Shown here: piece by piece, positions 108 to 57,743 of the stretch
Layout: every line of letters starts with the position of its first letter
How positions within the stretch are numbered: the stretch's first letter is position 1
NCBI RefSeq assembly: GCF_026672425.1
Contig: NZ_JAPPRC010000003.1
Location: 1,718,501 to 1,782,500, forward strand
From: Pannonibacter sp. SL95
GTDB lineage: Bacteria > Pseudomonadota > Alphaproteobacteria > Rhizobiales > Stappiaceae
Length of the DNA: 64,000 nucleotides
Direction: 5' to 3'
Position numbers and translations under genes: made by a program
The notes under the pieces: generated by a model
Told to the model about the DNA's origin: nothing
The model's database searches: none
Seen by the model: the letters and a program-made list of their open reading frames with translations, nothing else

Positions 108-1769
108 TTAGCCTTTGAAAAGCACTGCTGTCTTTTCCAGCGTGATCCAGACGCCCCAGAGGATCGGCACGCCGACCACGGCCCAGGCGATGGCGGCGGG
201 AAGGTCGAGCCCGCCCTTGCCGATGCCGAAGGAGCCATGGGTAATGCTGGCGTCGGCCGAACGGGCCTTGGCCTGCAGGCTGGCAACCTCTTCATTGGAC
301 ATGAACCACTTCTTGTCCAATGGCCGGACAAGCGCATTGGCGATCAGGCCAACCACCAGCATGCCGCACAGGATGTACATGGTGAAGTCATAGACCTGGG
401 CGCGGGGGATGCCGGCCGCGATCTGGGCTTCACGGATGTAGTTCACGACGACCGGTCCGAGGATGCCCGCAGTCGCCCAGGCGGTCAGCAGACGGCCGTG
501 GATCGCACCGACGAACTGGGTGCCGAAGATGTCGGCGAGATAGGCCGGGATCGTTGCGAAGCCGCCGCCGTACATCGACAGGATGATGCAGAAGATCGAC
601 ACGAACAGCAGCTGGCTGCCCATCTGCGCCGCCGTCGGGGCGAGGGCGTAGAGAACGATGCCGAGAATGAAGAACGTGAAGTAGGTGTTCTTGCGTCCGA
701 TCTTGTCCGAGAGCGAAGCCCAGAAGAACCGCCCCGCAATGTTGAACAGCGACAGGAGCCCGGTGAAGCCGGCTGCGATGGCCGCGATGGCTGCCTTCTG
801 CTCCGTCGACAGGTCGGTGAAGGTCAGCTCCGGCAGGCCGATGAGTTTGCCGGAGAAGATCTCCTGCAGCATCGGGGATGCCATGCCGATCACGCCGATG
901 CCGGCGGAGACGTTCATGCACAGGACGATCCAGATCATCCAGAACTGCGGCGTCTTGTGTGCGTCGCGCAGGTGGACGTGGTGCTGGGTGATCATGGACG
1001 TCGTCTTGTTCTGCGGCGGGGTCCAGCCCTCGGGACGCCAGCCGGCCGGCGGCAGGCGGTAGCCGAAGGCACCGGCCATCATGAAGACGAAATAGATCGC
1101 CGCCATGACCACGAAGGTTTCCCAAACGCCGACGCTTTCCGGCGTCGCGAATGTGCGCATCAGCCGGTCCGCCAGCGGCGCACCGATCATCGCGCCGCCG
1201 CCAAAGCCCATGATCGCCATGCCGGTTGCCATGCCGCGCCGGTCGGGGAACCACTTGATCAGCGTGGACACCGGCGAAATGTAGCCAAGGCCAAGACCGA
1301 CGCCACCGATGACGCCCGCGCCGAGCCACATCAGCCACAGCTGATGCGTCGCAACACCGATGGCAGCCAGCAGGATGCCGCCACACCAGCACAGGGCCGA
1401 GACGACACCGGCCTTGCGCGGGCCGGCCTTTTCCAGCCAGCCACCCCAGATCGCGGCCGAGCTGCCCAGAAGGACGAAGAACAGGGTGTAGATCCAGCCG
1501 AGGTCGGCCACGCGCCAGTCGCAGCTGGTGGTGAACAGGGCGCCCATCAGGCTCATGCCGTTGCAGCTGACGGACTTGTCGATGCCAATGGCACGGGTCA
1601 GCGGCAGCCAGAACACGCTGAAGCCGTAGGCCATGCCAATGCAAAGATGGATGGCAAGCGCCGCCGGCGGGACCAACCAGCGATTGAAGCCGGGTTTTGC
1701 GATGATGCGTTCGCGGTCGAGCAGCCCTGGCTCGCCAGCGCCGCTAAATGTATCTGCCGTTGTCGACAT
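108..1769 (-). CDS. OFA-family MFS transporter (oxalate/formate antiporter-like)
   Basis: 553-residue inner-membrane transporter with about 12 hydrophobic segments, of the oxalate:formate antiporter branch of the major facilitator superfamily. The segment with CDWRVADLGWIYT and the loop PDRRGMATG between helices 2-3 style repeats are typical of OFA members. The ATG at 1769 is chosen because GGGAGGAA lies just before it; the frame stays open further upstream but into the promoter. It is transcribed away from the two-component genes upstream and is preceded by a sigma-54 type promoter with two palindromic sites, so the adjacent NtrC-type regulator is the likely activator. The substrate is probably a small carboxylate, but which one cannot be read from sequence. 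Confidence 0.85.
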   Translation of the reverse strand: MSTTADTFSGAGEPGLLDRERIIAKPGFNRWLVPPAALAIHLCIGMAYGFSVFWLPLTRAIGIDKSVSCNGMSLMGALFTTSCDWRVADLGWIYTLFFVLLGSSAAIWGGWLEKAGPRKAGVVSALCWCGGILLAAIGVATHQLWLMWLGAGVIGGVGLGLGYISPVSTLIKWFPDRRGMATGMAIMGFGGGAMIGAPLADRLMRTFATPESVGVWETFVVMAAIYFVFMMAGAFGYRLPPAGWRPEGWTPPQNKTTSMITQHHVHLRDAHKTPQFWMIWIVLCMNVSAGIGVIGMASPMLQEIFSGKLIGLPELTFTDLSTEQKAAIAAIAAGFTGLLSLFNIAGRFFWASLSDKIGRKNTYFTFFILGIVLYALAPTAAQMGSQLLFVSIFCIILSMYGGGFATIPAYLADIFGTQFVGAIHGRLLTAWATAGILGPVVVNYIREAQIAAGIPRAQVYDFTMYILCGMLVVGLIANALVRPLDKKWFMSNEEVASLQAKARSADASITHGSFGIGKGGLDLPAAIAWAVVGVPILWGVWITLEKTAVLFKG

Positions 1770-1916
1770 GTGGTTCCTCCCGTGAGCCCCTGACGGGGTG
1801 AGTGGGCAGGAGTTCCGGTTCGCGCGCAGCCACGTCTTCGTCGTGCCATCCGGAGCCGCCCGTTTCCTCCCGGCGGGCTCCATCGGCGAACCTTGTCCTC
1901 TTCCCGGCAAAGCATT

Positions 1917-1932
1917 TGCGAGGATCGTGCCA
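1917..1932 (-). promoter_or_regulatory. Sigma-54 (RpoN) -24/-12 promoter of the OFA transporter
   Basis: Read on the minus strand the sequence is TGGCACGATCCTCGCA. It keeps the GG and GC dinucleotides 10 bases apart and matches the consensus TGGCAC-N5-TTGC at all but one position. Transcription would start near 1905, leaving a leader of about 135 bases before the transporter ATG. The gene directly upstream encodes a sigma-54-dependent activator, which strongly supports the call. Confidence 0.8.
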
Positions 1933-1986
1933 AGTCTAGGACACGTGACTTATCAATCATTTGGTAAGCATGTTCGCCCGCCGTCA

Positions 1987-2019
1987 GACAGTTTGTCCGT
2001 CTTGGTGCGACAAGTTGTC
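1987..2019. promoter_or_regulatory. Two tandem palindromes, probable upstream activator sites
   Basis: GACAGTTTGTC (1987-1997) and GACAAGTTGTC (2009-2019), each followed by CGT on the plus strand, have centres 22 bases apart, about two helical turns. They lie roughly 85 and 108 bases upstream of the predicted sigma-54 start, the usual place for NtrC/DctD-family binding. The likely binder is the response regulator encoded at 4072-5508. Confidence 0.65.
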
Positions 2020-2030
2020 CGTAAAAATGC

Positions 2031-4082
2031 TCATCTTGCTTCGGGCAAGAGGATCACGAACCTCGTTCCCGATGCATCGCTGCGATCCAGCCGGATGTTG
2101 CCACCTTGGCGGCCGAGGAGGGTCTGGCAGATCGACAGGCCGAGGCCTGTCCCCTTTGGCCGGTTGTCCGGCCCCTGGGCGGCGCGGGTGGTGAAGAAGG
2201 GATCGAAGATCCGCTCTCGTATGTCGTCCGGAATGCCCCCGCCGGTGTCCTGAACGGAAATCTCGACCTGTGGCTCGTCCTTTTCATCGGTATCGCGGCA
2301 GGCAAGGGTCAGCTTTCCGCCGTCCGGCATGGCATGCAGGGCGTTGACGATGAGGTTGATCAGCACCTGCTGCAGCTCTGTCCGGTTCATCAGCACTTGC
2401 CGCGTTGTCTGGCAGTCGATGACGACCTCGATCTCGGCCTTGCTGAGGAGGTGCTGTACCAGGGGCAGACAGTCATGGATGGCGTCTGCGGGATAGGTCC
2501 GCTCGGTCCAGCCGGCATATTCCTCCGGTCTGGCAAATTGCAGCAGGCGGGTGACGATCTGGTTGATCCGGTGCACCTGCTCGTCAAGCAGGCGGAATTC
2601 GGTCGCCGCATCGTCGGCGCGCGCGCCCATCACCTCGCGCAGGACATCAAGGTTTCCTTGGATCACCGCGACCGGATTGTTGATTTCATGCGCAACCCCC
2701 GCCGTGATTTCGCCGATGGCAGCGAGCTTTTCGGACAGGATCAGCTGCCGCGTCGTTGCCTCCAGCGCCCTGTTGGCGTCCTCAAGGTCCCGCGTGCGGT
2801 CGGCGACCCGCTGGTTCAGCTCGTCGTTCCAGCGCCTGAGATCGCGGTCGCGCTCCTGGACGAGGTCGAGCAGATGATCAAGGTGGCCGGCGACGCGGCC
2901 GATCTCGTCCTCGCTGGCGGTAACGCCCGTCCTTGCACCTAGATCGCCGGCTTCCACCTTGGCGATCGTGCCCGTCATCCGTTCCAGCGGCCGGAAGATC
3001 GCATGTGCCCAACGCAGGAAGACCGGAACAGAGATGGCCAGGATCAACCCGACGGCAACAAGGGCAAGGATCAGTGTGCTTTGCTTGGCCGCCGTGAAGG
3101 GCGCCTGCAGGAAACCGACATAGAGCATGCCGACGCGGGCGCCCCGGCTGTCAAGGATCGGCTCATAGGCGGAGATGTACCAGTCGTTGACCACGAAGGC
3201 GCTGGCCCGCCACACTTGCCCTTCACCCAGCACGGTGCGCTGAACCGCATCAGACACCCTTGTGCCAAGCGCCCGCCGCCCCTCGAACAGGCGCACATTG
3301 GTGCTGATGCGCACATCGCCGAGGAACAGGGTCGCGGTGCCTTCGCTGCCCTGCGGCAGGCTGCCCTCCTGGTAGACAAGATCGTTGATCGTGTCGATGA
3401 AGGGCAGGTTCTGGTTCAGCAACAACCCGCCAACAAGCGCGCCCTGCCGTCCACCGGGCAACAGCACCGGCGTCGCGCTCTGGATGACCATGCCGCGATC
3501 CTCGACCGTCCGCTCGCTTGGTGCGGCATTCGGGGTCGGTACGAGTTCGATCCTTGCCCGGGCGGCGAGCCCGTCGCCGAGTGCGGCAAGATCGTCTGCC
3601 CCCAATATGTCGATGGCTGTGCGCGGCAGGCCGTTGAGCGCCGTGCGCACAACGGGGGACCCGGTGGGCGGTGCTGCAAGATCCGGCGCGCTTGCGGCAA
3701 TGAGCGTCCCGAGATCGTCGATGACGTAGAGAAAATCGAGCCGCAGCTCGCCCTTGGCCCGGCTCAGCAGCGCGGGCAGGGTGCCGGTGCCGGCCTGGTC
3801 CTGAAAGCGTGCGGACTGGCCAAGAGCCGTCACCCGCTCGCCGGTGGTTTCCAGGATGCGGCCGAGATACTGCCGCGCCACGGTCAGGTCACTGCTGACC
3901 TTGGCGATCAGCAACTCGTCAAACTTGCCACTCCAGCGCAGCATGAGCGCGCCGGCCACCAGGGGCAGCAGCACCAGCGTCGGCAGCAGGGCAATGGCGA
4001 GCAGCCGGTAGCGGATCGACCGGCTCGGTCGAGGCGCAGATCCCTTTGGGGACGCAGCATCGGAGGTGGGGTCAGCTGACAT
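2031..4082 (-). CDS. DctB-like sensor histidine kinase
   Basis: 683-residue membrane sensor kinase. It has a transmembrane helix at about residues 23-48, a large periplasmic Cache-like sensing domain, a second helix at about 334-358, a HAMP linker, a short coiled coil, and a HisKA H-box (AGVAHEINNP, His about 465). The ATPase domain shows the N-box NALHAMPDGG, the G1 box DTGGGIP and the G2 box GTGLGLSICQ. The start at 4082 overlaps the end of the response regulator gene by 11 bases, so the pair is co-translated. Together they resemble DctB/DctD-type systems that sense an external small molecule, often a carboxylate, and switch on its transporter through sigma-54. An upstream in-frame start at 4160 would lie inside the regulator gene and is less likely. 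Confidence 0.88.
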   Translation of the reverse strand: MSADPTSDAASPKGSAPRPSRSIRYRLLAIALLPTLVLLPLVAGALMLRWSGKFDELLIAKVSSDLTVARQYLGRILETTGERVTALGQSARFQDQAGTGTLPALLSRAKGELRLDFLYVIDDLGTLIAASAPDLAAPPTGSPVVRTALNGLPRTAIDILGADDLAALGDGLAARARIELVPTPNAAPSERTVEDRGMVIQSATPVLLPGGRQGALVGGLLLNQNLPFIDTINDLVYQEGSLPQGSEGTATLFLGDVRISTNVRLFEGRRALGTRVSDAVQRTVLGEGQVWRASAFVVNDWYISAYEPILDSRGARVGMLYVGFLQAPFTAAKQSTLILALVAVGLILAISVPVFLRWAHAIFRPLERMTGTIAKVEAGDLGARTGVTASEDEIGRVAGHLDHLLDLVQERDRDLRRWNDELNQRVADRTRDLEDANRALEATTRQLILSEKLAAIGEITAGVAHEINNPVAVIQGNLDVLREVMGARADDAATEFRLLDEQVHRINQIVTRLLQFARPEEYAGWTERTYPADAIHDCLPLVQHLLSKAEIEVVIDCQTTRQVLMNRTELQQVLINLIVNALHAMPDGGKLTLACRDTDEKDEPQVEISVQDTGGGIPDDIRERIFDPFFTTRAAQGPDNRPKGTGLGLSICQTLLGRQGGNIRLDRSDASGTRFVILLPEAR

Positions 4083-5508
4083 GCCAGTCCTGACAGCGCC
4101 GGTCGATGGTCTTGCGCGAGATGCCAAGCTTCGCGGCGGCGGCATCCCGGTCGCCGCCACAGGCTGCCAGCGTCGACAGGATCAGGCGGCGTTCCATGCC
4201 GGCCAGGGTCTCGTCGTCGGCCGTGTCGGCCGCTGTGTTGGCGGCTGTGTTGGCGGATGATGCGCTGCTGGGCAGCCCCTGCGTCGCCTGTGCCAGAAAA
4301 TCCGGGGCGAAGCGACCCAGGATCAGGCTGCGCTCGATGAGATTGCGCAGCTCCCGCACATTGCCTGGCCAGGAATAGGCGGCAAGCGCGGCCCGCACCT
4401 CGGAGGTAATTGCAACGGGGGGCATGCCAAGCTGCTGCGACAGCTTTGCCATGAACAGGTCTGCGAGATCCTGTACATCCGTGCCACGATCCTTCAGCGG
4501 CGGCATGTGGATGGCGACGATGTTCAGCCGGTAGAACAGGTCGGCGCGGAAGCGTCCGTCCGCGACGGCCCGCGCCAGATCCACGTTGGTGGCAAAGACC
4601 AGCCGGATGTCGACCGGGATCTCGCGCTCCGTACCCAGCGGGCGGACCTTCCGGTCCTCCAGCACCCGCAGGAGCTTGCTTTGCGTGGCCAGTGGCAACT
4701 CGCCGATCTCGTCGAGAAACAGCGTTCCGCCGCGGGCATGCTGGAACAGACCTTCACGCGCGCCGGATGCGCCGGTGAAGGCGCCCTTGACGTGGCCGAA
4801 CAGTTCGCTCTCCACCATGTCGGCGGGGATCGCCGCGCAGTTCACCGGTACGAAGGGCTTGTCCGCCCGTTCCGACAGGTCATGCAGCATCCGTGCGGCG
4901 ACTTCCTTGCCGGTGCCGGATTCCCCCGTCAGCAGCACGGTCGAGGGTAGGGGAGCAACCCGGGCCAGCGTCGCCCGGACCTCGCGGATGGGAAGGGAGT
5001 TGCCGATCAGCTTGTCGCGCAACAGGATCAGGTCGGAACTTGCGCGCAGCTCATGCCGCAGGACCGTGTTTTCCCGCTGCAGTCGCGAGCGCTCGACGCA
5101 GCGCGCCACCGCATTGAGGATCTGGTTCGAGCGGAACGGTTTCAGCACGAAGTCGGCCGCGCCCGCCTGCAGTGCCTGGATCGCCGTCTCCAGATCTGCA
5201 TAAGCCGTGATCAGGATTGCAGCGGGAAAAAAGCCCGTGTCGTTCTGCTCCGCCAGCCAGTCGACGCCGCGCTTGCCCGACAGGATGTTGTCGAGGATCA
5301 CCACATCGAAATGCGCCCCTTCCAGCAGGGTGGCGGCCTCTTGCGTGTCTGAGGCCAGTTCCACCGAGCGGCAGCGCGGGCGCAAGGTCCGGTCCAGAAA
5401 GTGCCGCATGCCCGGTTCGTCGTCGACGACCAGAATGGAAGCTTCGCGCAGGATCCGGTCAAGATTGCTCAGGGGCTCCGCATCGGTGACGCGGCTGGCA
5501 GTGTGCAT
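4072..5508 (-). CDS. Sigma-54-dependent NtrC-family response regulator
   Basis: 478 residues. The receiver domain shows the acidic pair VVDDE and the phospho-acceptor Asp near residue 73 (VVILDN), with the conserved Thr and Lys in LITAYAD and LKPF. The AAA+ domain has Walker A GESGTGKE, the sigma-54 contact loop GAFTGA and Walker B GGTLFLDEIGE. A Fis-type helix-turn-helix closes the protein (AAAKLGISRKTIDRR). The start is preceded by GAGGGA; just before that a GGGCC-GAAA-GGCCC hairpin (5523-5536) sits in the leader. First gene of a two-gene operon with the kinase; its expected target is the sigma-54 promoter near 1920. Confidence 0.92.
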   Translation of the reverse strand: MHTASRVTDAEPLSNLDRILREASILVVDDEPGMRHFLDRTLRPRCRSVELASDTQEAATLLEGAHFDVVILDNILSGKRGVDWLAEQNDTGFFPAAILITAYADLETAIQALQAGAADFVLKPFRSNQILNAVARCVERSRLQRENTVLRHELRASSDLILLRDKLIGNSLPIREVRATLARVAPLPSTVLLTGESGTGKEVAARMLHDLSERADKPFVPVNCAAIPADMVESELFGHVKGAFTGASGAREGLFQHARGGTLFLDEIGELPLATQSKLLRVLEDRKVRPLGTEREIPVDIRLVFATNVDLARAVADGRFRADLFYRLNIVAIHMPPLKDRGTDVQDLADLFMAKLSQQLGMPPVAITSEVRAALAAYSWPGNVRELRNLIERSLILGRFAPDFLAQATQGLPSSASSANTAANTAADTADDETLAGMERRLILSTLAACGGDRDAAAAKLGISRKTIDRRCQDWHVS

Positions 5509-5660: not shown

Positions 5661-6908
5661 TCACCGGCCGATTGTGATGAGATCTGTCGGCAGGCGGTTC
5701 ATGTTCTCCGCCCCGGTTTTGGTGATCAGATACTGGTTTTCGAGGATGAACCCGCCGAGACCGGTGAGATACCAGGGGCATTCGAAGGCGAGCACCATGC
5801 CTGGTTCGGCGATCACGTCGCTGTCGGCGGCAATGAACGGCCATTCCTCGCTGCCAAGGCTGGCACCCAGTCCATGACCGAAATGCCCACGGCTGAACTC
5901 GGGGAATCCGGCGGCATGGATTGCAGCGGTTGCGGCCCGGTGGATCTCTTTCAGCGGGGTGCCAGGCCGAAGCAGCGCTTCGCCGGCGGCAAAGCCTGCG
6001 GCCAGCGCTTCATGCGCACGCCGCGCATCATCCGATGGTGCGCCGAAGACAAAGGTGCGGCCAGTGTCGGACGTATAGCCGTTGATCAGGCACCCGACGT
6101 CGACCTTGACGATATCGCCTTCCGTCGCGGTTGCTTCGCCGCCCCACGGGTCCTTGCCCACGGAGACATAGTCCCAGGTGCCGGTGAGCGCTGCACCGGG
6201 GCTTGCTGCCTTGACCGCATCGATCCAGAGCGCTGCGATCTCCCGGCGGCTCATGCCGGTTCTCGCATTGTCGCGCATGGCCGAAATGCCACGTTCAGAG
6301 AGTTCGACCGCCTGCCGCAGCCAGCTGATTTCGTCGGGCGTCTTGATCATTTTCAGCCGCGCGGCGATGTCGCTGCCGTCTTCCAGACGGTAGTCCTTGA
6401 ACACAGCCTGAAGGTCGGGAAGGTCTCTGGCGGAAATGGCGGACAATTCGACCGAGATGCGGCTGCCCGGGCCGATGCCGCGTTCGGCCAGCGCGGCAAT
6501 GACGTGCTGGTAGCACAGACTGGCGTCAAACGTCGTCGGGCGGGTGAAGTGAGCACTGCGTCCTGCGATCCGGTTGGCGAATGCAACGCGGGCTGCAAGG
6601 TCTCCCTCGGCATCTGCATCAAGGTCCGTCGTCTCGACCCAGAGCGGGGTGGTTCTGAGATCGGCGATCGGGCTTGCTGCCCGGAAGGCCGGTGCAAACA
6701 GGTCGCTTGCCACCGCCATTTCGGGAATGGACGCATCGGCAGGAACGAGCACCGCCACCGCGCCAGCCCTGCGCCACATTGTGCCAACGCCGGCAGGAGC
6801 ACCTGTCGCATGGCGGAAGCTCTCTGGCGACAGCAGCAGCAGGGCATCAAAGCCTGCGTCAGCCATCAGGCGTTCGGCGCGAAGTCGGTCGAGGGCGGGC
6901 ATGGGCAT
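5661..6908 (-). CDS. M24-family metallopeptidase (Xaa-Pro peptidase-like)
   Basis: 415 residues: a creatinase-like N-terminal domain and a pita-bread M24 catalytic domain. The dinuclear metal ligands can be followed: two Asp in VDVGCLINGYTSDTGRTF, His in GHFGHGLG, Glu in LAFECPW and Glu in FILENQY. The size suits a cytoplasmic Xaa-Pro dipeptidase, though creatinase relatives share this fold. AAGGATC precedes the ATG at 6908; a second ATG two codons in is possible. It lies 75 bases after a sugar-type ABC permease and is probably the last gene of that operon, an unusual partner for a CUT1 transporter. Confidence 0.85.
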   Translation of the reverse strand: MPMPALDRLRAERLMADAGFDALLLLSPESFRHATGAPAGVGTMWRRAGAVAVLVPADASIPEMAVASDLFAPAFRAASPIADLRTTPLWVETTDLDADAEGDLAARVAFANRIAGRSAHFTRPTTFDASLCYQHVIAALAERGIGPGSRISVELSAISARDLPDLQAVFKDYRLEDGSDIAARLKMIKTPDEISWLRQAVELSERGISAMRDNARTGMSRREIAALWIDAVKAASPGAALTGTWDYVSVGKDPWGGEATATEGDIVKVDVGCLINGYTSDTGRTFVFGAPSDDARRAHEALAAGFAAGEALLRPGTPLKEIHRAATAAIHAAGFPEFSRGHFGHGLGASLGSEEWPFIAADSDVIAEPGMVLAFECPWYLTGLGGFILENQYLITKTGAENMNRLPTDLITIGR

Positions 6909-6983: not shown

Positions 6984-7847
6984 TCATTTCACCGCGCCGG
7001 CGGTCATGCCGTTGATGAACTGGCGCGACAGGATGATGTAGATGAGGATGATCGGGGCAGCCGACAGGGTCAGCCCGGCAAAGAGCACGCCCCAGTCGGT
7101 GGTGTATTCGCCCATGAAGGTGGTCAGCCCCTGCGGCAGGGTCTTCAGGTGATCCGACTGGATGAAGATCAGCGGGAAGAAGAAGTCATTCCAGATCGGC
7201 ACCACGTTCTGGATCCCGGCGATCACCATCGCTGGCCTGACCAAAGGCAGCATGATCGACCACATGATGCGGGCTTCGCTGGCCCCGTCCATGCGCGCGG
7301 CATCCTCCAGCTCGTTCGGCAGGGTGCGGATGAAGCCCGTCATGATGAAGACCGTCGTCGGCAGGCCCATGGCGACATAAATGATGACCAGTGCAGCCTG
7401 CGTGTTGAGCACGCCAAGGTCCCGCATCAGCACGAACAACGGAATGATCGCGAGTTTCAGCGGCAGGGTGAGCCCGGCGACGAAGAACATCAGCACGAAA
7501 CCGGAGCCTGTGAACTGGTAGCGCGCGATCGCATAGGCCGCCATCGTGCCGAGCGTCAGGATGAGCAGCAGCGACGTTCCGGTGACGATGGCCGAGTTGA
7601 TTAGGTAGCGCAGGAAGTTCGTTTCGGTCCAGATCTTGGCGATGTTCGACAGGTTCGTGAAATCGGGCAGGGCAAACGGCGTCTGGAAGATCTGCGGATT
7701 GGTCTTGAAGGCCGAAAAGATCATCAGGACGATCGGCGCCAGCATGATGAACGTGTTGGCGATCAGGATGATCTGGATCAGCCCGTCGCGGCCCAGACGT
7801 CCGACGAGACCGCTGCGGTCGCTATAGGCCATGGCAGAGGCGCTCAT
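6984..7847 (-). CDS. CUT1 sugar ABC transporter permease (MalG-type)
   Basis: 287-residue inner-membrane permease with six predicted helices. The EAA loop that docks on the ATPase reads NELEDAARMDGASEARIMW. Its start overlaps the stop of the upstream permease gene in an ATGA arrangement, so the two are translationally coupled. It should pair with the MalF-type subunit at 7844-8764 and with the ATPase at 10144-11214. Confidence 0.9.
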   Translation of the reverse strand: MSASAMAYSDRSGLVGRLGRDGLIQIILIANTFIMLAPIVLMIFSAFKTNPQIFQTPFALPDFTNLSNIAKIWTETNFLRYLINSAIVTGTSLLLILTLGTMAAYAIARYQFTGSGFVLMFFVAGLTLPLKLAIIPLFVLMRDLGVLNTQAALVIIYVAMGLPTTVFIMTGFIRTLPNELEDAARMDGASEARIMWSIMLPLVRPAMVIAGIQNVVPIWNDFFFPLIFIQSDHLKTLPQGLTTFMGEYTTDWGVLFAGLTLSAAPIILIYIILSRQFINGMTAGAVK

Positions 7848-8764
7848 AGCTGGATCTCCCGTTTGCGCAGATACATGGTGAGGAAGCCGGCCACCACGGC
7901 GATGAAGAGGAAGATGAGCACGGCAAGCGCGCTGCCGGTGCCGAAGTCCTGCGCGCCGCCGGACTGGTTGCCGAAGGCGGTGCGGTAGAAATAGAGGCCC
8001 AGCACATCCGTGGCGCCATGCGGCGAGCCATCAAGCCCGGCCATGACATAGGGCAGCTCGAACCAGTTGAAGGCGCCGACGAAGAGCAGGGTAAAGACCA
8101 CCGTGGCGCTGGGCGCGACCAGCGGCCAGACTATCTTCGACACCTTCACCCACTCGCTCTGGGTTTCCATCCGCACCGCATCGAGGATCTCGCCTGGAAT
8201 GCGCTGCATGCCGGCGAGGAACACGAGGGTGGGGAAACCGACCATGTGCCAGGCATTGGCGATGATCAGCGCCATCAGCGCGGTGGAATCATCGCCGAGC
8301 CAGGGCATGGCGAGCCCGCCGAGGCCGACGGCGCGCAGTGAAATGTTCACGACGCCGAAGAGCGGGTGCAGGAACAGCTTGAACAGGAAGCCGACGATGA
8401 TCGTCGACAGCACCACCGGCAGGAACACGGCGATGCGGTGAAACCGCGCGCCAGGCAGCTCGCGCCACAGGCAATAGGCCAGCACGAAGCCGATCCCGTT
8501 CTGCAGCACCATCAGCGCGAAGAACACGAAGACGTTGTGCAGGAAGGCGTTGATGGTCCAGGTGGCATAGGGCTCCTGGAACAGCACCTTGTGGAAGTTG
8601 GCGAACCAGACGAACTCGCCCCGCGCCAGCCCCTTCCATTCGAAGAACGCGTAGGCGAAGGCCGACAGGATCGGATAGACGACAAACAGGGCAACGAAGG
8701 CCAGAGGCGGCACGATCAGGGCGGCGATCCAGAGCCTGCGGCCGGTGAGCGGCGATCCGAACAT
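7844..8764 (-). CDS. CUT1 sugar ABC transporter permease (MalF-type)
   Basis: 306-residue permease with six predicted membrane helices and the EAA motif region PGEILDAVRMETQSEWVK. The frame is open back to an ATG at 8830, but between 8764 and the end of the binding-protein gene lies a perfect 11-bp hairpin that would be inside the coding region if the earlier start were used. The residues encoded there (Pro/Gly/Ala-rich) look non-coding, and most MalF-type proteins begin close to the first helix, so ATG 8764 (MFGSPLTGRR) is preferred. No strong ribosome-binding site was found for either start. Confidence 0.85.
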   Translation of the reverse strand: MFGSPLTGRRLWIAALIVPPLAFVALFVVYPILSAFAYAFFEWKGLARGEFVWFANFHKVLFQEPYATWTINAFLHNVFVFFALMVLQNGIGFVLAYCLWRELPGARFHRIAVFLPVVLSTIIVGFLFKLFLHPLFGVVNISLRAVGLGGLAMPWLGDDSTALMALIIANAWHMVGFPTLVFLAGMQRIPGEILDAVRMETQSEWVKVSKIVWPLVAPSATVVFTLLFVGAFNWFELPYVMAGLDGSPHGATDVLGLYFYRTAFGNQSGGAQDFGTGSALAVLIFLFIAVVAGFLTMYLRKREIQL

Positions 8765-8800
8765 CTTGAGGGTCTCGTGGGGAAGGGGTGCCGGAGAGGC

Positions 8801-8828
8801 GGCTCCGGGCGAAATGCCGCCCGGAGCC
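8801..8828 (-). promoter_or_regulatory. GC-rich hairpin between binding-protein and permease genes
   Basis: GGCTCCGGGCG (8801-8811) and CGCCCGGAGCC (8818-8828) form a perfect 11-bp stem with a 6-base loop, 8 bases past the binding-protein stop codon. It has no U-tract, so it fits a partial terminator or a 3'-end block to RNA decay that leaves the binding-protein message in excess, as known for malE-malF. Confidence 0.65.
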
Positions 8829-8836
8829 ATGACGGA

Positions 8837-10075
8837 TTACTTCTTGAACGGGGCGTACCAGTTGGCCAGACCCGTGGTCAGTGCCTTGCCGACCTCGTCC
8901 GGGGTCGCCTTGTCGGCGAGAAGCTTCTGCACTTCACCCTGCAGCAGCACCGAGCCGGACGGTTCGCCGAAGCGGAAATGCACCAGCATGATGTAGGGGA
9001 TCGCGTTCTTGTTGAGCTCTGCAACCTCGGCCAGCAGCGGGTCATCGAAGGTGACGCCCGGAACGGTCGAGATGTTGCGCAGGCCATTGGCGAAAGCCTG
9101 GCCATATTCCTTCGAGGCAACGTAGTTCAGGAACTTCAGTGCCGCTTCCGGATGCTTGGTCTTGGCATTGGCCGCGTAGCCGCCGTCAATGAACAGGCCG
9201 ACGAGCGCGTCATCCTCGACGGTCTTGCCCGGTGCGGCGAAGACGCCAAGCTTCAGGTTCGGGTTCTGCTTGGCGAAATTGGCCAGCTCGAACGAGCCAC
9301 CGGCAAACATGCCCGCCATGCCCGAGGTGAAGAGCTGCTGCGACGACGGGTAGTCGAGGCCGATGAAGCCGTCCGGGAAATAGGCCGACATTTCCTTGAG
9401 CTTCGCCAGCGCCTCGATATAGCGCGGATCGGTGAAGTCTGCCTTGCCGGCCATCAGGTCTTCATAGAAGCCCTTGCCCATGATCGAGGAGCCGAGCGCG
9501 GAGACGATCGTCTCGTTCTGCCAGGCCGTTGCTGTGCCGTTGGCGAAGGGCATCAGGCCTGCGGCCTTGAGCTTCTCGGCAGCAGCCTTCAGTTCGTCGT
9601 AGGTCTTGGGCTCGGCAATGCCGTTCTTGTCGAAGAGCTCCTTGTTGTAGATCACCAGCATGGTCTGGCTGGCAAAGGGCACGCCGTAGAGCGTCTTGTC
9701 GGAGCGCATCGTCTGGGCGTTCAGCGCCGCCGGCGTGAAGTTCGCCAGCGCCGGGATCTTCGTGGTGTCGAGCGCCATCAGGTGGCCGGCGCTTGCGACA
9801 GTCTCAAGGCCGCCATAGGCGCGCGACATGAACAGGTCCGGACCGGTCCCGCCGGCCAGCGCCGTCGACAGGATGGTGTTGTAGTTCGCCGCCTCGAAGG
9901 CTTCGAACTTGACGGTGATGCCCGGGTTCTGTGCTTCGAAGGTGTCGATGAACTTTTCGTACTGGGCCTTGTCTTCCTGGCGCCAGCTCCAGAACGTCAG
10001 TTCCTGAGCCATGACGGGCAGGGCCATCAGCAGGGCGCCGAGCGCGGCTGTGGTGCGGATGAATGTCTTTCTCAT
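8837..10075 (-). CDS. Sugar ABC transporter substrate-binding protein (CUT1)
   Basis: 412-residue periplasmic binding protein of the extracellular solute-binding family 1. A Sec signal peptide (MRKTFIRTTAALGALLMALP) probably ends at VMA before QELTFWSW. The ATG at 10075 has AGAGGAA in front of it. The family fold is supported by FWSWRQEDKAQYEKFIDTFE near the N-terminus and the motif FTSGMAGMFAGGSFEL. It follows the ATPase gene by 68 bases and precedes the two permease genes. The ligand is likely a sugar or oligosaccharide, not identifiable here. Confidence 0.9.
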   Translation of the reverse strand: MRKTFIRTTAALGALLMALPVMAQELTFWSWRQEDKAQYEKFIDTFEAQNPGITVKFEAFEAANYNTILSTALAGGTGPDLFMSRAYGGLETVASAGHLMALDTTKIPALANFTPAALNAQTMRSDKTLYGVPFASQTMLVIYNKELFDKNGIAEPKTYDELKAAAEKLKAAGLMPFANGTATAWQNETIVSALGSSIMGKGFYEDLMAGKADFTDPRYIEALAKLKEMSAYFPDGFIGLDYPSSQQLFTSGMAGMFAGGSFELANFAKQNPNLKLGVFAAPGKTVEDDALVGLFIDGGYAANAKTKHPEAALKFLNYVASKEYGQAFANGLRNISTVPGVTFDDPLLAEVAELNKNAIPYIMLVHFRFGEPSGSVLLQGEVQKLLADKATPDEVGKALTTGLANWYAPFKK

Positions 10076-10143
10076 CTGTTCCTCTCTTGCTTGCTTTGGT
10101 TCTTGGGGAGGCCGGCTCTCTGGCGTGCGAGCAGGCGTCAGGT

Positions 10144-11214
10144 TCAGGCGGGCAGGCGCTCGCCTGAGGTTCGGTTGAAGACATGCGCCTTGCCGGGGAC
10201 GAGATCGATGCGGACATCCTCCTCCGGGGCCGGACGCGTGTCGGGGCTGCAACGGATGCTCACCAGCGTGCCTTCGCTCAGGCGCGCGTAAACATAGGCG
10301 TTGTCGCCGAGATACTCGGTGTAGACGACCTTGGCTGCCAGGCCCGTGGCGGCATTGGCGGGACGCAGGATCAATCCGTCCGGCCGCACACCCAGCGTCA
10401 GCTCGCGCTCATCGCCAGCAATTTGCATGCCCGCGTCCACCGCGCCGGAGCCCGCAAGACCAAGCTGCGAGCCATCCCGCGTCACCGGCAGCAGCGCCAT
10501 GCGCGGCGAGCCGATGAAGGTGGCAACAAAGGTGTTGGCCGGGGTCTCGTAAAGCTCGCGCGGCGTGCCGAACTGTTCGATCCGCCCCTGGTTCATGACG
10601 ACGATGCGGTCAGCGAGGGTCATCGCCTCGACCTGATCATGCGTGACATAGATCGTGGTGCCGCCGATGTCGCGGTGCAGCTTGGCGATCTCGAGCCGCA
10701 CGTCGGAGCGCAGTGCCGCATCGAGGTTCGACAGGGGCTCGTCCAGCAGCAGCAACTCGGGTTTGCGCACCAGGGCCCGGCCAATGGCGACGCGCTGGCG
10801 CTGGCCACCGGAGAGTTCGCGCGGCTTGCGCTGCATCAAGGGTTCCAGCCGCAGCATGCGGGCGGCATCGGCAATGCGCGCTTCAACCTCGGCCTTGGTC
10901 AGGCCCATCAGCCGCGCGCCGAAGGCCATGTTCTCGTAGACATCCATGTGCGGATAGAGCGCATAGGACTGGAACACCATGGCGATGCCGCGCCGGGAGG
11001 GCGCCACATCATTCATGCGGCGGCCATTGAGCAGGAAGTCGCCGTCGCTGATCGGGTCAAGCCCGGCAATCAGCCGGAGCAGGGTCGACTTGCCGCAGCC
11101 CGAAGGCCCGACGAACACGATCAGTTCGCCGTGGCTGATTTCCAGATCAATGCCATGCAGCACCTCCAGTGCCTTGAACCGCTTCCTGATGCCCCTGAGG
11201 GAGAGTTGCGCCAT
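10144..11214 (-). CDS. CUT1 ABC transporter ATPase (MalK/UgpC-type)
   Basis: 356 residues. The nucleotide-binding domain shows Walker A GPSGCGKST, the Q-loop in VFQSYALYPHMDV, the signature LSGGQRQRVAIGRALV, Walker B LLLLDEPLSNLDA and the H-loop YVTHDQVEAMT. The C-terminal third is a TOBE/MalK-type regulatory domain with LGVRPDGL. It should power the permeases at 6984-8764 at the cytoplasmic membrane. In this operon the ATPase precedes the binding protein. Its start lies 42 bases after the HAD hydrolase gene. Confidence 0.92.
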   Translation of the reverse strand: MAQLSLRGIRKRFKALEVLHGIDLEISHGELIVFVGPSGCGKSTLLRLIAGLDPISDGDFLLNGRRMNDVAPSRRGIAMVFQSYALYPHMDVYENMAFGARLMGLTKAEVEARIADAARMLRLEPLMQRKPRELSGGQRQRVAIGRALVRKPELLLLDEPLSNLDAALRSDVRLEIAKLHRDIGGTTIYVTHDQVEAMTLADRIVVMNQGRIEQFGTPRELYETPANTFVATFIGSPRMALLPVTRDGSQLGLAGSGAVDAGMQIAGDERELTLGVRPDGLILRPANAATGLAAKVVYTEYLGDNAYVYARLSEGTLVSIRCSPDTRPAPEEDVRIDLVPGKAHVFNRTSGERLPA

Positions 11215-17502: not shown

Positions 17503-18407
17503 CAGTCACGCCCCCGCTGCGTCGGGTCGAGGATATCGCGCAGGGCATCGCCGACCAGGTTGAAGCCAAGGGCCAGCATCAGGATGGCTGCGCCGGGGAA
17601 GAACACCAGCCAGGGCGCCGTCTGGAAGTAGGTCTGGTTCTCGAAGATGATGTTGCCCCAGGACGGGGTTGGCGGCTGCACACCGATGCCGAGATAGCTG
17701 AGCGTTGCTTCCAGCAGCACCGTGGTGGAGATGCCGAGCGTGCCCCAGACGATGATCGTGGGCACCAGATGCGGCAGGATATGGCGAAACAGGATGCGGG
17801 CGGTCGAGGCACCAAGTGTGCGCTCGGCGTCGATGAGCTCACGCCGGGCCAGCGCACTGGTCTCGGTGTAGATGATGCGCGCGGTCTGCACCCAGTTCAC
17901 CAGTGCGATGACCAGTGCCACGATCCACAGGCTGGGCTGGAACACGGCGGCGAGACAGATGGCGAGCAGCAGGGCCGGAAAGGCCATCATCAGGTCGGTG
18001 AAGCGCATCAGCAGGCTGCCGATCCAGCCGCCAAAATAGCCGGCGGTGACGCCAACCAGTGTGCCGATGGTGAGCGCAATGCCATTGGCGACCAGCCCGA
18101 TCACCAGCGACGTGCGCGCGCCGTAGAGGATGCGCGTCAGCAGATCGCGCCCGAGCAGGTCCGTGCCAAGCCAGAAACGGGTGTCCGGTGGCAGCGGCGA
18201 GCCCTCCAGCGTCAGGCCGTCGAACATCTGCTCGTCGGGTGAGTAGGGCGTGGCATAGGGCGCAAGCACCGCGCCGAGCACGATCAGCACGACACAGGCA
18301 AGGCCTGCAACGGCAAGCGGGCGGCGGGCAAGGCGGGCCACCAAACCAGGACGGCGCGCCGGCGCTGCGGGAGCCGTCTCAGGTGAGGCGGTTGGACTGT
18401 GTGACAT
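17502..18407 (-). CDS. Peptide-type ABC permease (DppC-like), amide operon
   Basis: 301 residues, about six helices. The N-terminal cytoplasmic arm is followed by the typical LGTDLLGRDLLTRILYGARTS motif and later the coupling segment ERTLGASTARILFRHILPH. Gene order DppC before DppB is reversed from the usual arrangement. Its start lies 29 bases inside the end of the ANTAR regulator gene, binding sensor, regulator and transporter into one transcript. Confidence 0.9.
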   Translation of the reverse strand: MSHSPTASPETAPAAPARRPGLVARLARRPLAVAGLACVVLIVLGAVLAPYATPYSPDEQMFDGLTLEGSPLPPDTRFWLGTDLLGRDLLTRILYGARTSLVIGLVANGIALTIGTLVGVTAGYFGGWIGSLLMRFTDLMMAFPALLLAICLAAVFQPSLWIVALVIALVNWVQTARIIYTETSALARRELIDAERTLGASTARILFRHILPHLVPTIIVWGTLGISTTVLLEATLSYLGIGVQPPTPSWGNIIFENQTYFQTAPWLVFFPGAAILMLALGFNLVGDALRDILDPTQRGRD

Positions 18408-56615: not shown

Positions 56616-57743
56616 ATGACTGATCACACGCCTGTCGCTCCAGTCGCCCCTGTCGTGCCAGCCGGCACGGCTCAGGTTTCGGCTGAGGTTTCGGCCCCGG
56701 TCGCGGGCCTCGCTGGGGCTGGCGGTGCGGGAGCACTTGCGGGGGCCGGATCGCTGCCGCCGCTGGCCGTCGCGCTCGTCTACGAAGGCCTCAGCCTGTT
56801 CGAGTTCTCCATCTGCACCGAGATCTTCGCTGCAAAGAAGCCGGAGATCGACGGCCCCTGGTACCGGTTTGCCGCGGTTGCGGTCGAACTGGACACCGTG
56901 TCGGCGAGCGGCGGCGTCAGCGTCCGGGCGACGGCTCCGGCGAGCCTTCTTGACGACGCGGACATCATCCTCGTGCCGGGCTGGCCGGGGCGCGATCACC
57001 GCCTGCCGGCCGGGCTGAAGCGCCAGCTGCAGCGGGCGCAGGTGCGGGGCACGCGCCTCGTCACATTCTGCAGCGGCGCGTTCCTTCTGGCAGCAGCCGG
57101 TCTTCTCGACGGGCGCCGGGCGACGACCCACTGGCACTACATCGCGGATCTTCGCGCCCTCGCACCGGCCTCCGAGATTGTCGAGGATGTGCTCTATGTC
57201 GAGGATGGCAACGTGTTGACGGCTGCGGGATCGGCCGCCGGCATCGACCTGTCGCTGGCCCTGGTGCGGCGCGATTTCGGCTGGCAGGCGGCCAATGCCC
57301 TGGCGCGCAGCCTGGTGGTGCCGGCACAGCGCGAGGGCGGGCAGGCCCAGTTCGTGCCGCGTCCCGTCGCCCGTCATCCGCAGGGCTCGCTGGCCCCGCT
57401 GCTCGAACGGATCGAGCGGGAGATTGATCAGGACTGGGATCTGGCGCGGCTGGCGGAGGCCGCCTGCTGCAGCCTGCGCACCCTCAACCGCCGCTTCCGC
57501 GATGCCACGGGCCTTGCGCCGCAGGACTGGCTGATCCGGGCGCGGGTGCGCCGCGCCTGCAGCCTGCTGGAGACCAGCGGCGAGGGCATCGACGCCATTG
57601 CGGCGGCCTGCGGCTTCAAGGCCCCGGAAACGTTCCGCCTGCATTTCCGCAGGATCATGACGGTCACGCCGTCCCGTTACCGCTCCGAGTTTCAGGCCGC
57701 CGCCAATGCGGCGCCGGCCCGGCAGGCAGCCCGGAAAGCCTGA
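56616..57743 (+). CDS. ftrA: GlxA/FtrA-like AraC-family regulator with DJ-1/PfpI domain
   Basis: 375 residues. After an Ala/Pro/Val-rich N-terminal stretch of about 45 residues come a DJ-1/PfpI-like domain (VALVYEGLSLFEFSICTEIF, LVTFCSGAFLLAAAG) and a C-terminal AraC double helix-turn-helix (LARLAEAACCSLRTLNRRFR, IDAIAAACGFKAPETFRLHF). This build plus the neighbouring rhodanese gene matches FtrA. The low-complexity start could mean that the true start lies later. Stop codon lies in the terminator hairpin at 57740. Confidence 0.82.
   Translation: MTDHTPVAPVAPVVPAGTAQVSAEVSAPVAGLAGAGGAGALAGAGSLPPLAVALVYEGLSLFEFSICTEIFAAKKPEIDGPWYRFAAVAVELDTVSASGGVSVRATAPASLLDDADIILVPGWPGRDHRLPAGLKRQLQRAQVRGTRLVTFCSGAFLLAAAGLLDGRRATTHWHYIADLRALAPASEIVEDVLYVEDGNVLTAAGSAAGIDLSLALVRRDFGWQAANALARSLVVPAQREGGQAQFVPRPVARHPQGSLAPLLERIEREIDQDWDLARLAEAACCSLRTLNRRFRDATGLAPQDWLIRARVRRACSLLETSGEGIDAIAAACGFKAPETFRLHFRRIMTVTPSRYRSEFQAAANAAPARQAARKA

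Follow-up and report, generated by a model that had tools for sequence, protein, structure and literature searches.

The best explanation for the gene cluster described here, to which we give a probability of roughly 70%, is a formate-responsive sigma-54 two-component switch for formate uptake. The cluster lies in a stretch of 64,000 nucleotides from Pannonibacter sp. SL95 (the window, to which coordinates refer unless a contig or locus is named). The membrane-proximal periplasmic Cache module of a sensor kinase would bind formate and the kinase would phosphorylate an NtrC-type regulator, whose binding sites would be 11-bp palindromes, at least two in number and separated by two (or four) turns of the helix. 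With IHF bending the spacer, the regulator would meet sigma-54 polymerase at a -24/-12 promoter, and transcription would start on the gene of a predicted formate transporter, beside a LysR gene and fdsGBA-fdhD. Transcription may read through into the fds genes, and transport is presumed to be inward.

Organisation of the locus

The regulator, sensor kinase and transporter genes follow one another in that order on the minus strand of the window (Table 1). Pfam matches (Response_reg, Sigma54_activat and HTH_8 in the regulator, whose translation contains GAFTGA; sCache, HAMP, HisKA and HATPase in the kinase) bear out the original prediction, made from the DNA alone, that the operon adjacent to the transporter gene encodes a sigma-54 activator and a Cache-type sensor kinase. 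RpoN is also encoded in the genome (437 bits, cut-off 277).

The same prediction described a complete self-contained circuit. This does not apply here, as the cluster extends beyond the left edge of the window: LysR, 86 bases from the transporter gene, comes next on the same strand, then fdsG, fdsB, fdsA and fdhD. At 17 of the 35 pair-bearing loci described below, though, the flanks yielded no formate dehydrogenase genes. FdsG (246.8 bits, cut-off 198), FdsA (962.3, cut-off 666.25) and FdhD (187.7, cut-off 140.9) all score above threshold for an fds NAD-dependent formate dehydrogenase; FdsB gave only a NuoF-like match, below the NuoF-like cut-off. The fdsA gene is found in two overlapping frames (L097 near 9000, i.e. 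C3 near 1715000, outside the window) and is one open frame in a congener. Both parts are 96-97% identical to the congener's, and either an assembly error or a real frameshift is responsible.

On the 5' side of the regulator gene lie an M24-type peptidase gene (5661-6908) and ABC-transporter genes (6984-10252). The peptidase is absent from all 80 transporter loci described below at E 1e-20, so the boundary of the cassette is probably at about 5510.

Table 1 Features of the proposed switch and its surroundings
Feature	Position	Strand	Remarks
LysR, fdsG, fdsB, fdsA, fdhD	genome C3 1711703-1718521	-	outside window
LysR gene, first codons	1..21	-	remainder beyond left edge of window
MFS transporter, OFA/SfMCT kind	108..1769	-	553 aa, C-terminal tail domain; predicted formate transporter
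Sigma-54 (-24/-12) promoter TGGCACGATCCTCGCA	1917..1932	-	11/12 consensus positions
IHF-type site TATCAATCATTTG	1951..1963	+	between promoter and palindromes; presumed consensus
Proximal activator palindrome GACAGTTTGTC (predicted)	1987..1997	-	centre 85 bases upstream of expected start
Distal activator palindrome GACAAGTTGTC (predicted)	2009..2019	-	22 bases from proximal
Sensor histidine kinase	2031..4082	-	683 aa from ATG at 4082 (chosen start); periplasmic double-Cache, R258, T261, T274
NtrC-family sigma-54 response regulator	4072..5508	-	478 aa; receiver, AAA+, Fis-type HTH

Promoter architecture

Between the kinase and transporter genes, a near-consensus sigma-54 site (11/12) with GG and GC ten bases apart is preceded by two GACA-N3-TGTC palindromes 22 bases apart, the sequence and coordinates of which had been predicted correctly. 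The transcription start would lie near 1907, about 12 bases past the GC. From there the palindrome centres are 85 and 107 bases upstream, in agreement with the predicted 85 and 108. The site TATCAATCATTTG in the spacer is one that we take to be of IHF type; the pattern WATCAANNNNTTR has a single match in the window (0.34 expected), which is this site.

The GG-N10-GC spacing, which had been offered as evidence, carries no meaning alone because it has 1321 matches on the two strands of the window, and it was rejected as evidence by itself. The palindromes are more informative. Single copies number three in the window against 0.95 expected, the third being a lone palindrome at 56892-56902, and the pair never arose when the 261-base intergenic stretch was dinucleotide-shuffled 20000 times or the window shuffled 300 times. 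The pair pattern has a single match in the whole 5.04-Mb genome (reversed control 0), and a larger regulon in this genome was rejected on that ground. When the pattern was relaxed to one palindrome followed after 50-79 bases by TGGC-N9-GC, five places in the genome matched, the known one included, and one matched the reversed control.

Conservation and distribution

The promoter was compared across 81 close loci, made up of 80 from a scan for the transporter and the window. The regulator-kinase pair lies directly upstream, in the same direction, in 34 of them, window included. None of these 34 lacks an exact palindrome, 32 carry two, and the sigma-54 site scores 10/12 or better in every one. 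Among the remaining 47, palindromes were found only at L055, where the pair is convergent and downstream and no sigma-54 site of 9/12 is present; a sigma-54-like site scoring 9/12 or more is present in five of the 47. A locus was called pairless when its fetched flanks, of up to 7 kb, gave no match at E 1e-20, and the call is weak at L072 because only 187 upstream bases are available there.

Mapped on the transporter tree (81 sequences), the distribution of the pair requires 11 changes, compared with 26 for shuffled labels, and the palindromes follow the pair in all seven independent contrasts on well-supported branches (p 0.016; L055 was counted as pair-bearing in both analyses). Nine Bradyrhizobium loci have moeA, regulator, kinase, transporter and fds, with palindromes; in eleven further loci, one of them titled only Bradyrhizobiaceae, the transporter lies between moeA on its upstream side and fds on its downstream side, with neither pair nor palindromes. 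From these comparisons the switch appears to be gained and lost as a unit. One pairless locus (L063, 5198-8653) carries two tandem transporter copies, 74% and 55% identical to that of the window.

The geometry of the promoters was measured in 57 regions, of which L183, lacking an exact palindrome, yielded nothing. The 56 that were counted are not independent, because many are from close relatives. Loci L055, L118, L168, L169, L175, L184-L187, L136, L138, L142 and L143 were left out of the set, as were a palindrome pair before the regulator gene of L116 and a single site in L117. In 50 of the 56 promoters, 63-67 bases separate the start of the proximal palindrome from the -24 box; the distance is 79, 86-90 (four promoters) and 109 bases in the other six, five of which are displaced by close to one or two steps of 22 bp. 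The spacing between palindromes is 19-24 bases in 44 promoters and 42-45 in ten. An IHF-type site with at most one mismatch is present in 36 of the 56 spacers (1.0 in shuffles), always 29-31 bases before the -24 box. On sequence grounds the layout is that of a classic enhancer, bend and promoter on one helix face. Departures were also seen: in two species of the same genus the sites are about 250 bases further upstream, and L184-L187 carry a single exact palindrome, with no sigma-54 site in the position seen elsewhere.

The original prediction that a sigma-54 promoter and paired activator sites tie the pair to the transporter is thus upheld by co-variation in 81 loci, by fixed geometry and by the presence of RpoN, and it is very likely that the pair controls the transporter through sigma-54. 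The palindromes could instead serve another regulator or be a chance match. This might be argued from palindrome pairs or composite promoters with no regulator-kinase pair found in the fetched DNA (L118, L120-L123, L219 and L220) and from the four of eight remoter pair loci without palindromes that are described below. It is opposed by the 20000 shuffles without a pair of palindromes, by sites and regulator-kinase pair changing together in the 81 close loci and by reversed-pattern controls that gave nothing in 297 and in 295 genomes; this explanation is very improbable.

Within the organism's own family the sensor module is found in 22 of 87 genomes and the transporter in 34, the 22 all being among the 34; by coordinates, sensor and transporter lie within about 4 kb on one contig in the 22 genomes. 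Loci were fetched from 20 of the 22 (all but G679 and G000). Formate dehydrogenase genes adjoin the transporter in 15 of these 20, the stretch of L183 reaching only 1.8 kb past it, and such linkage persists at transporter identities as low as 39-43% by tblastn (54-55% in the alignment).

Across the class, 11 of 385 genomes gave matches to the sensor module, 12 in all, of which three are distant sensors. Eight further genomes have a clear pair. G035, G333, G561 and G633 have palindromes, promoter and transporter in a row, and one class-wide locus (L140) repeats the full order of pair, palindromes, promoter, transporter, LysR and fdsGBA. No palindrome pair was found near the regulator-kinase pair in the other four loci (L136, L138, L142 and L143), so the site code is not universal for the family. 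L138 has LysR-fds and no adjoining transporter, and at L142 the pair is divergent from transporter-fds. In L143 a single palindrome lies 78 bases before a 9/12 sigma-54 site (17570-17658), about 7 kb from a pair that has no transporter.

The palindrome pair itself was found in 18 of 297 genomes (reversed-pattern control 0/297). The surroundings were read in 14 of the 18 (all but G039, G096, G118 and G207). In nine of them the regulator-kinase pair, or the kinase, adjoins (the window's own genome, G035, G087, G143, G171, G194, G216, G253 and G289); five showed no query genes in the fetched stretch (G029, G061, G084, G233 and G273). At L118 and L120-L123 a palindrome pair stands with no query genes nearby, and four of these five lack an adjoining sigma-54 site.

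Proposed sensing and transport of formate

It is likely that formate is both signal and cargo. Of 46 pairless loci, 44 have formate dehydrogenase or fdhD genes close to the transporter: 43 encode FdsA, FdsB or FdhD in their flanks (one on a weak match of 26%) and one more an NAD-formate dehydrogenase. Such genes are found in 17 of the 35 pair-bearing loci, or 18 once the window's genome is read; in the other 17 none was found in the flanks, which counts against formate. The neighbours of 16 of those 17 were read by eye and nothing common to them was seen.

The periplasmic region of the kinase was modelled as a double Cache (pLDDT 82) with DctB, LuxQ and others as structural neighbours, DctB sensor domains being among the best matches. 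In the alignment, which covers 27 of the 34 loci with the pair upstream, the distal Cache module is variable and the proximal one nearly invariant; the sCache_3_3 match scores 101.6 bits (gathering threshold 28.8). R258, T261 and T274 are present in all 27 aligned sensors, and the same residues in all 76 distinct sensor stretches that were matched, three distant sensors included; these are distinct strings, though a few may come from one and the same protein, as some of the loci overlap.

The spacing of the three residues (+3, +13) is that of R142, T145 and T158 in the chemotaxis receptor PacF, which affect formate binding as cited in PMC12501870. The binding module in PacF, by the same source, is the distal one, whereas here the proximal module would bind. 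A gut sCache_3_3 receptor with the formate residues also binds formate (PMC12415202). With Atu0526, a chemotaxis receptor of the sCache_3_2 kind, formic acid was the only one of nine organic acids to give a significant thermal shift (Kd 172 μM), and an R115A variant bound formate more tightly (22.9 vs 172 μM) and lost signalling (PMC8698456). These receptors share a Cache_3-type domain with the kinase and PacF shares the R-x2-T-x12-T spacing; the present protein differs in being a histidine kinase, with transcription as its presumed output. Two solved domains, 8py0 and 8py1, match weakly (E 0.003 and 0.006), with the same R-x2-T-x12-T spacing by eye and no ligand named; they are not among the best 50 structural matches, which does not speak against them. 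As the three distant sensors (33-44% identity) share the residues, the latter may be a signature of the Cache family rather than of the ligand.

The pair had been called DctB/DctD-like. This holds for the architecture and the double-Cache fold only; the conserved sensor module is an sCache_3_3 match with formate-type residues. The best NCBIfam matches are AtoC (378.1 bits, cut-off 714) and AtoS (181.4, cut-off 646). The best 25 of 101 and of 88 such matches are all below cut-off and include no DctB/DctD model.

The closest solved relatives of the transporter, by sequence and fold, are SfMCT and OxlT, and the best 11 Foldseek matches are of the OxlT/SfMCT-type fold (TM to target 0.84-0.89). SfMCT gives the best family match at 314.3 bits, below its cut-off of 320, and the OFA models are also below theirs (TIGR00890 157 of 374.85 bits, TIGR04259 126.3 of 335). 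The original description as an OFA-family transporter holds for the OxlT-like fold and the retained Arg272; by the TIGR00890 and TIGR04259 cut-offs the protein is an OFA relative and not a member. In the alignment R347 corresponds to OxlT Arg272 and W431 to OxlT Lys355, and both are invariant in 95 of 95 sequences. Lys355 holds the second carboxylate of oxalate (PMC10070484). A monocarboxylate fits better, since this lysine is replaced by Trp; oxalate was rejected as first-choice substrate on the same ground, the substitution also departing from the OxlT antiporter, and formate is favoured over it. The protein differs further from OxlT and SfMCT in its length and extra C-terminal tail helix. 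Residues 525-552 form this fused tail, which NCBIfam names 'MFS transporter small subunit' and which appears in the model as an extra helix.

Other possible targets of the switch

A composite pattern (two palindromes, 51-57 bases and TGG-N10-GC) was searched for more widely. It occurs in 20 of the 295 genomes of the G216 family (25 places) and in one of the five of the G087 family (two places), and reversed controls were 0 throughout, the 295 genomes included. The next gene at these 27 places is the transporter discussed here at 13, DnaK at four (once after an Hsp20-like ORF), ClpB at three, an AMP-ligase at two (one scanned, one by eye), and bestrophin and superoxide dismutase at one each; at one place DUF2171 genes are followed by an NAD-formate dehydrogenase (650 bits, cut-off 329) and at another GrpE lies about 750 bases on, which leaves one place without an assigned gene. 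The Hsp20 label was given by eye, a Pfam scan of that ORF having returned no family.

In L115, L116, L117, L215, L216, L221, L222 and L223 the pair, paired palindromes and sigma-54 sites lie in chaperone islands that hold DnaK, DnaJ, ClpB, bestrophin, a molybdopterin oxidoreductase and cytochrome bd. The oxidoreductase is present in four of five islands and cytochrome bd genes in two, in fetched stretches of unequal extent. The pairs in these islands are 51-66% identical to that of the window and keep the Arg, Thr and Thr. In L219 (10596-10697) and L220 (4005-4105) two divergent composite promoters stand before superoxide dismutase, with GrpE further off, and no pair was found in the fetched DNA. 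Composite promoters also precede an acyl-CoA ligase gene in L217 (4748-4850) and L218 (4506-4608), with the pair just upstream, and in L118 (7229-7332), without it; formate does not explain these targets.

One tentative reading, which we hold to be possible and somewhat short of an even chance, is that kinase, regulator and palindrome-IHF-sigma-54 promoter on a 22-bp grid make up a portable formate-sensing module. Alphaproteobacteria would place it before genes of formate uptake and oxidation or in chaperone and respiratory islands, formate outside the cell being read as food and also as a sign of acid and protein damage to come. DnaK, DnaJ, ClpB, the Hsp20-like ORF, bestrophin, cytochrome bd and once NAD-formate dehydrogenase would then be the island targets.

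Alternative explanations

Several observations count against formate uptake as the function: the 17 of 35 loci without formate dehydrogenase genes, the four of eight remoter pairs without palindromes, the L-lactate cargo of the nearest solved transporter, the shared residues of the distant sensors, the behaviour of Atu0526 R115A, the shifted or missing sites, the five genomes in which a palindrome pair had no query genes nearby and the acyl-CoA ligase promoters. The same circuit could have another ligand and cargo, a C2-C3 monocarboxylate (lactate, pyruvate or glycolate) or oxalate, with the formate dehydrogenase genes adjoining for another reason. The SfMCT match, to an L-lactate transporter, and the 17 pair-bearing loci speak for this, and it is unlikely given the formate dehydrogenase or fdhD genes at 44 of 46 pairless loci and the formate-type residues in all 76 sensor stretches, to which is added, for oxalate, the Trp at the position of Lys355 in all 95 transporters.

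The transporter might also export or exchange formate, the switch then serving formic-acid detoxification and not feeding. OxlT releases formate in exchange for oxalate (PMC10070484), and related pairs are found in chaperone and cytochrome bd islands. The neighbour here, though, is an NAD-linked formate dehydrogenase, a user of internal formate, and the lysine that serves oxalate is absent, which makes export or exchange improbable. A switch for formate uptake is still the explanation that we prefer.

Conclusions

Among the closest known parallels is the DctB/DctD-dctA system of C4-dicarboxylate sensing and uptake, which likewise has a double-Cache kinase, an NtrC-type sigma-54 regulator, paired upstream sites and a nearby transporter under control. 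The conserved ligand module here is instead the proximal one, with formate-type residues, and the transporter is an MFS protein and not DctA. YpdAB-YhjX of E. coli is also a two-component control of an OFA-type transporter gene, with a LytTR-type regulator, a pyruvate signal and no sigma-54. FhlA, again from E. coli, is a formate-responsive sigma-54 activator that binds formate itself in the cytoplasm, whereas here a membrane kinase would sense formate outside. Sigma-54 two-component control of an acid carrier is a known arrangement, from which this locus is set apart by its formate-type kinase, its carrier and its site code. No description of the pair, its sites or a sigma-54 formate kinase was found among the entries listed from an open-licence library, which is not proof that none exists.

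Formate is a key one-carbon feedstock and a plant-associated metabolite. If the proposed switch is real, it would supply a formate-inducible promoter for immediate use, and whether formate is linked, unexpectedly, to the induction of chaperones could be tested. A membrane kinase for outside formate, together with its site code, would explain how formate use is tuned in many rhizobia and their relatives.
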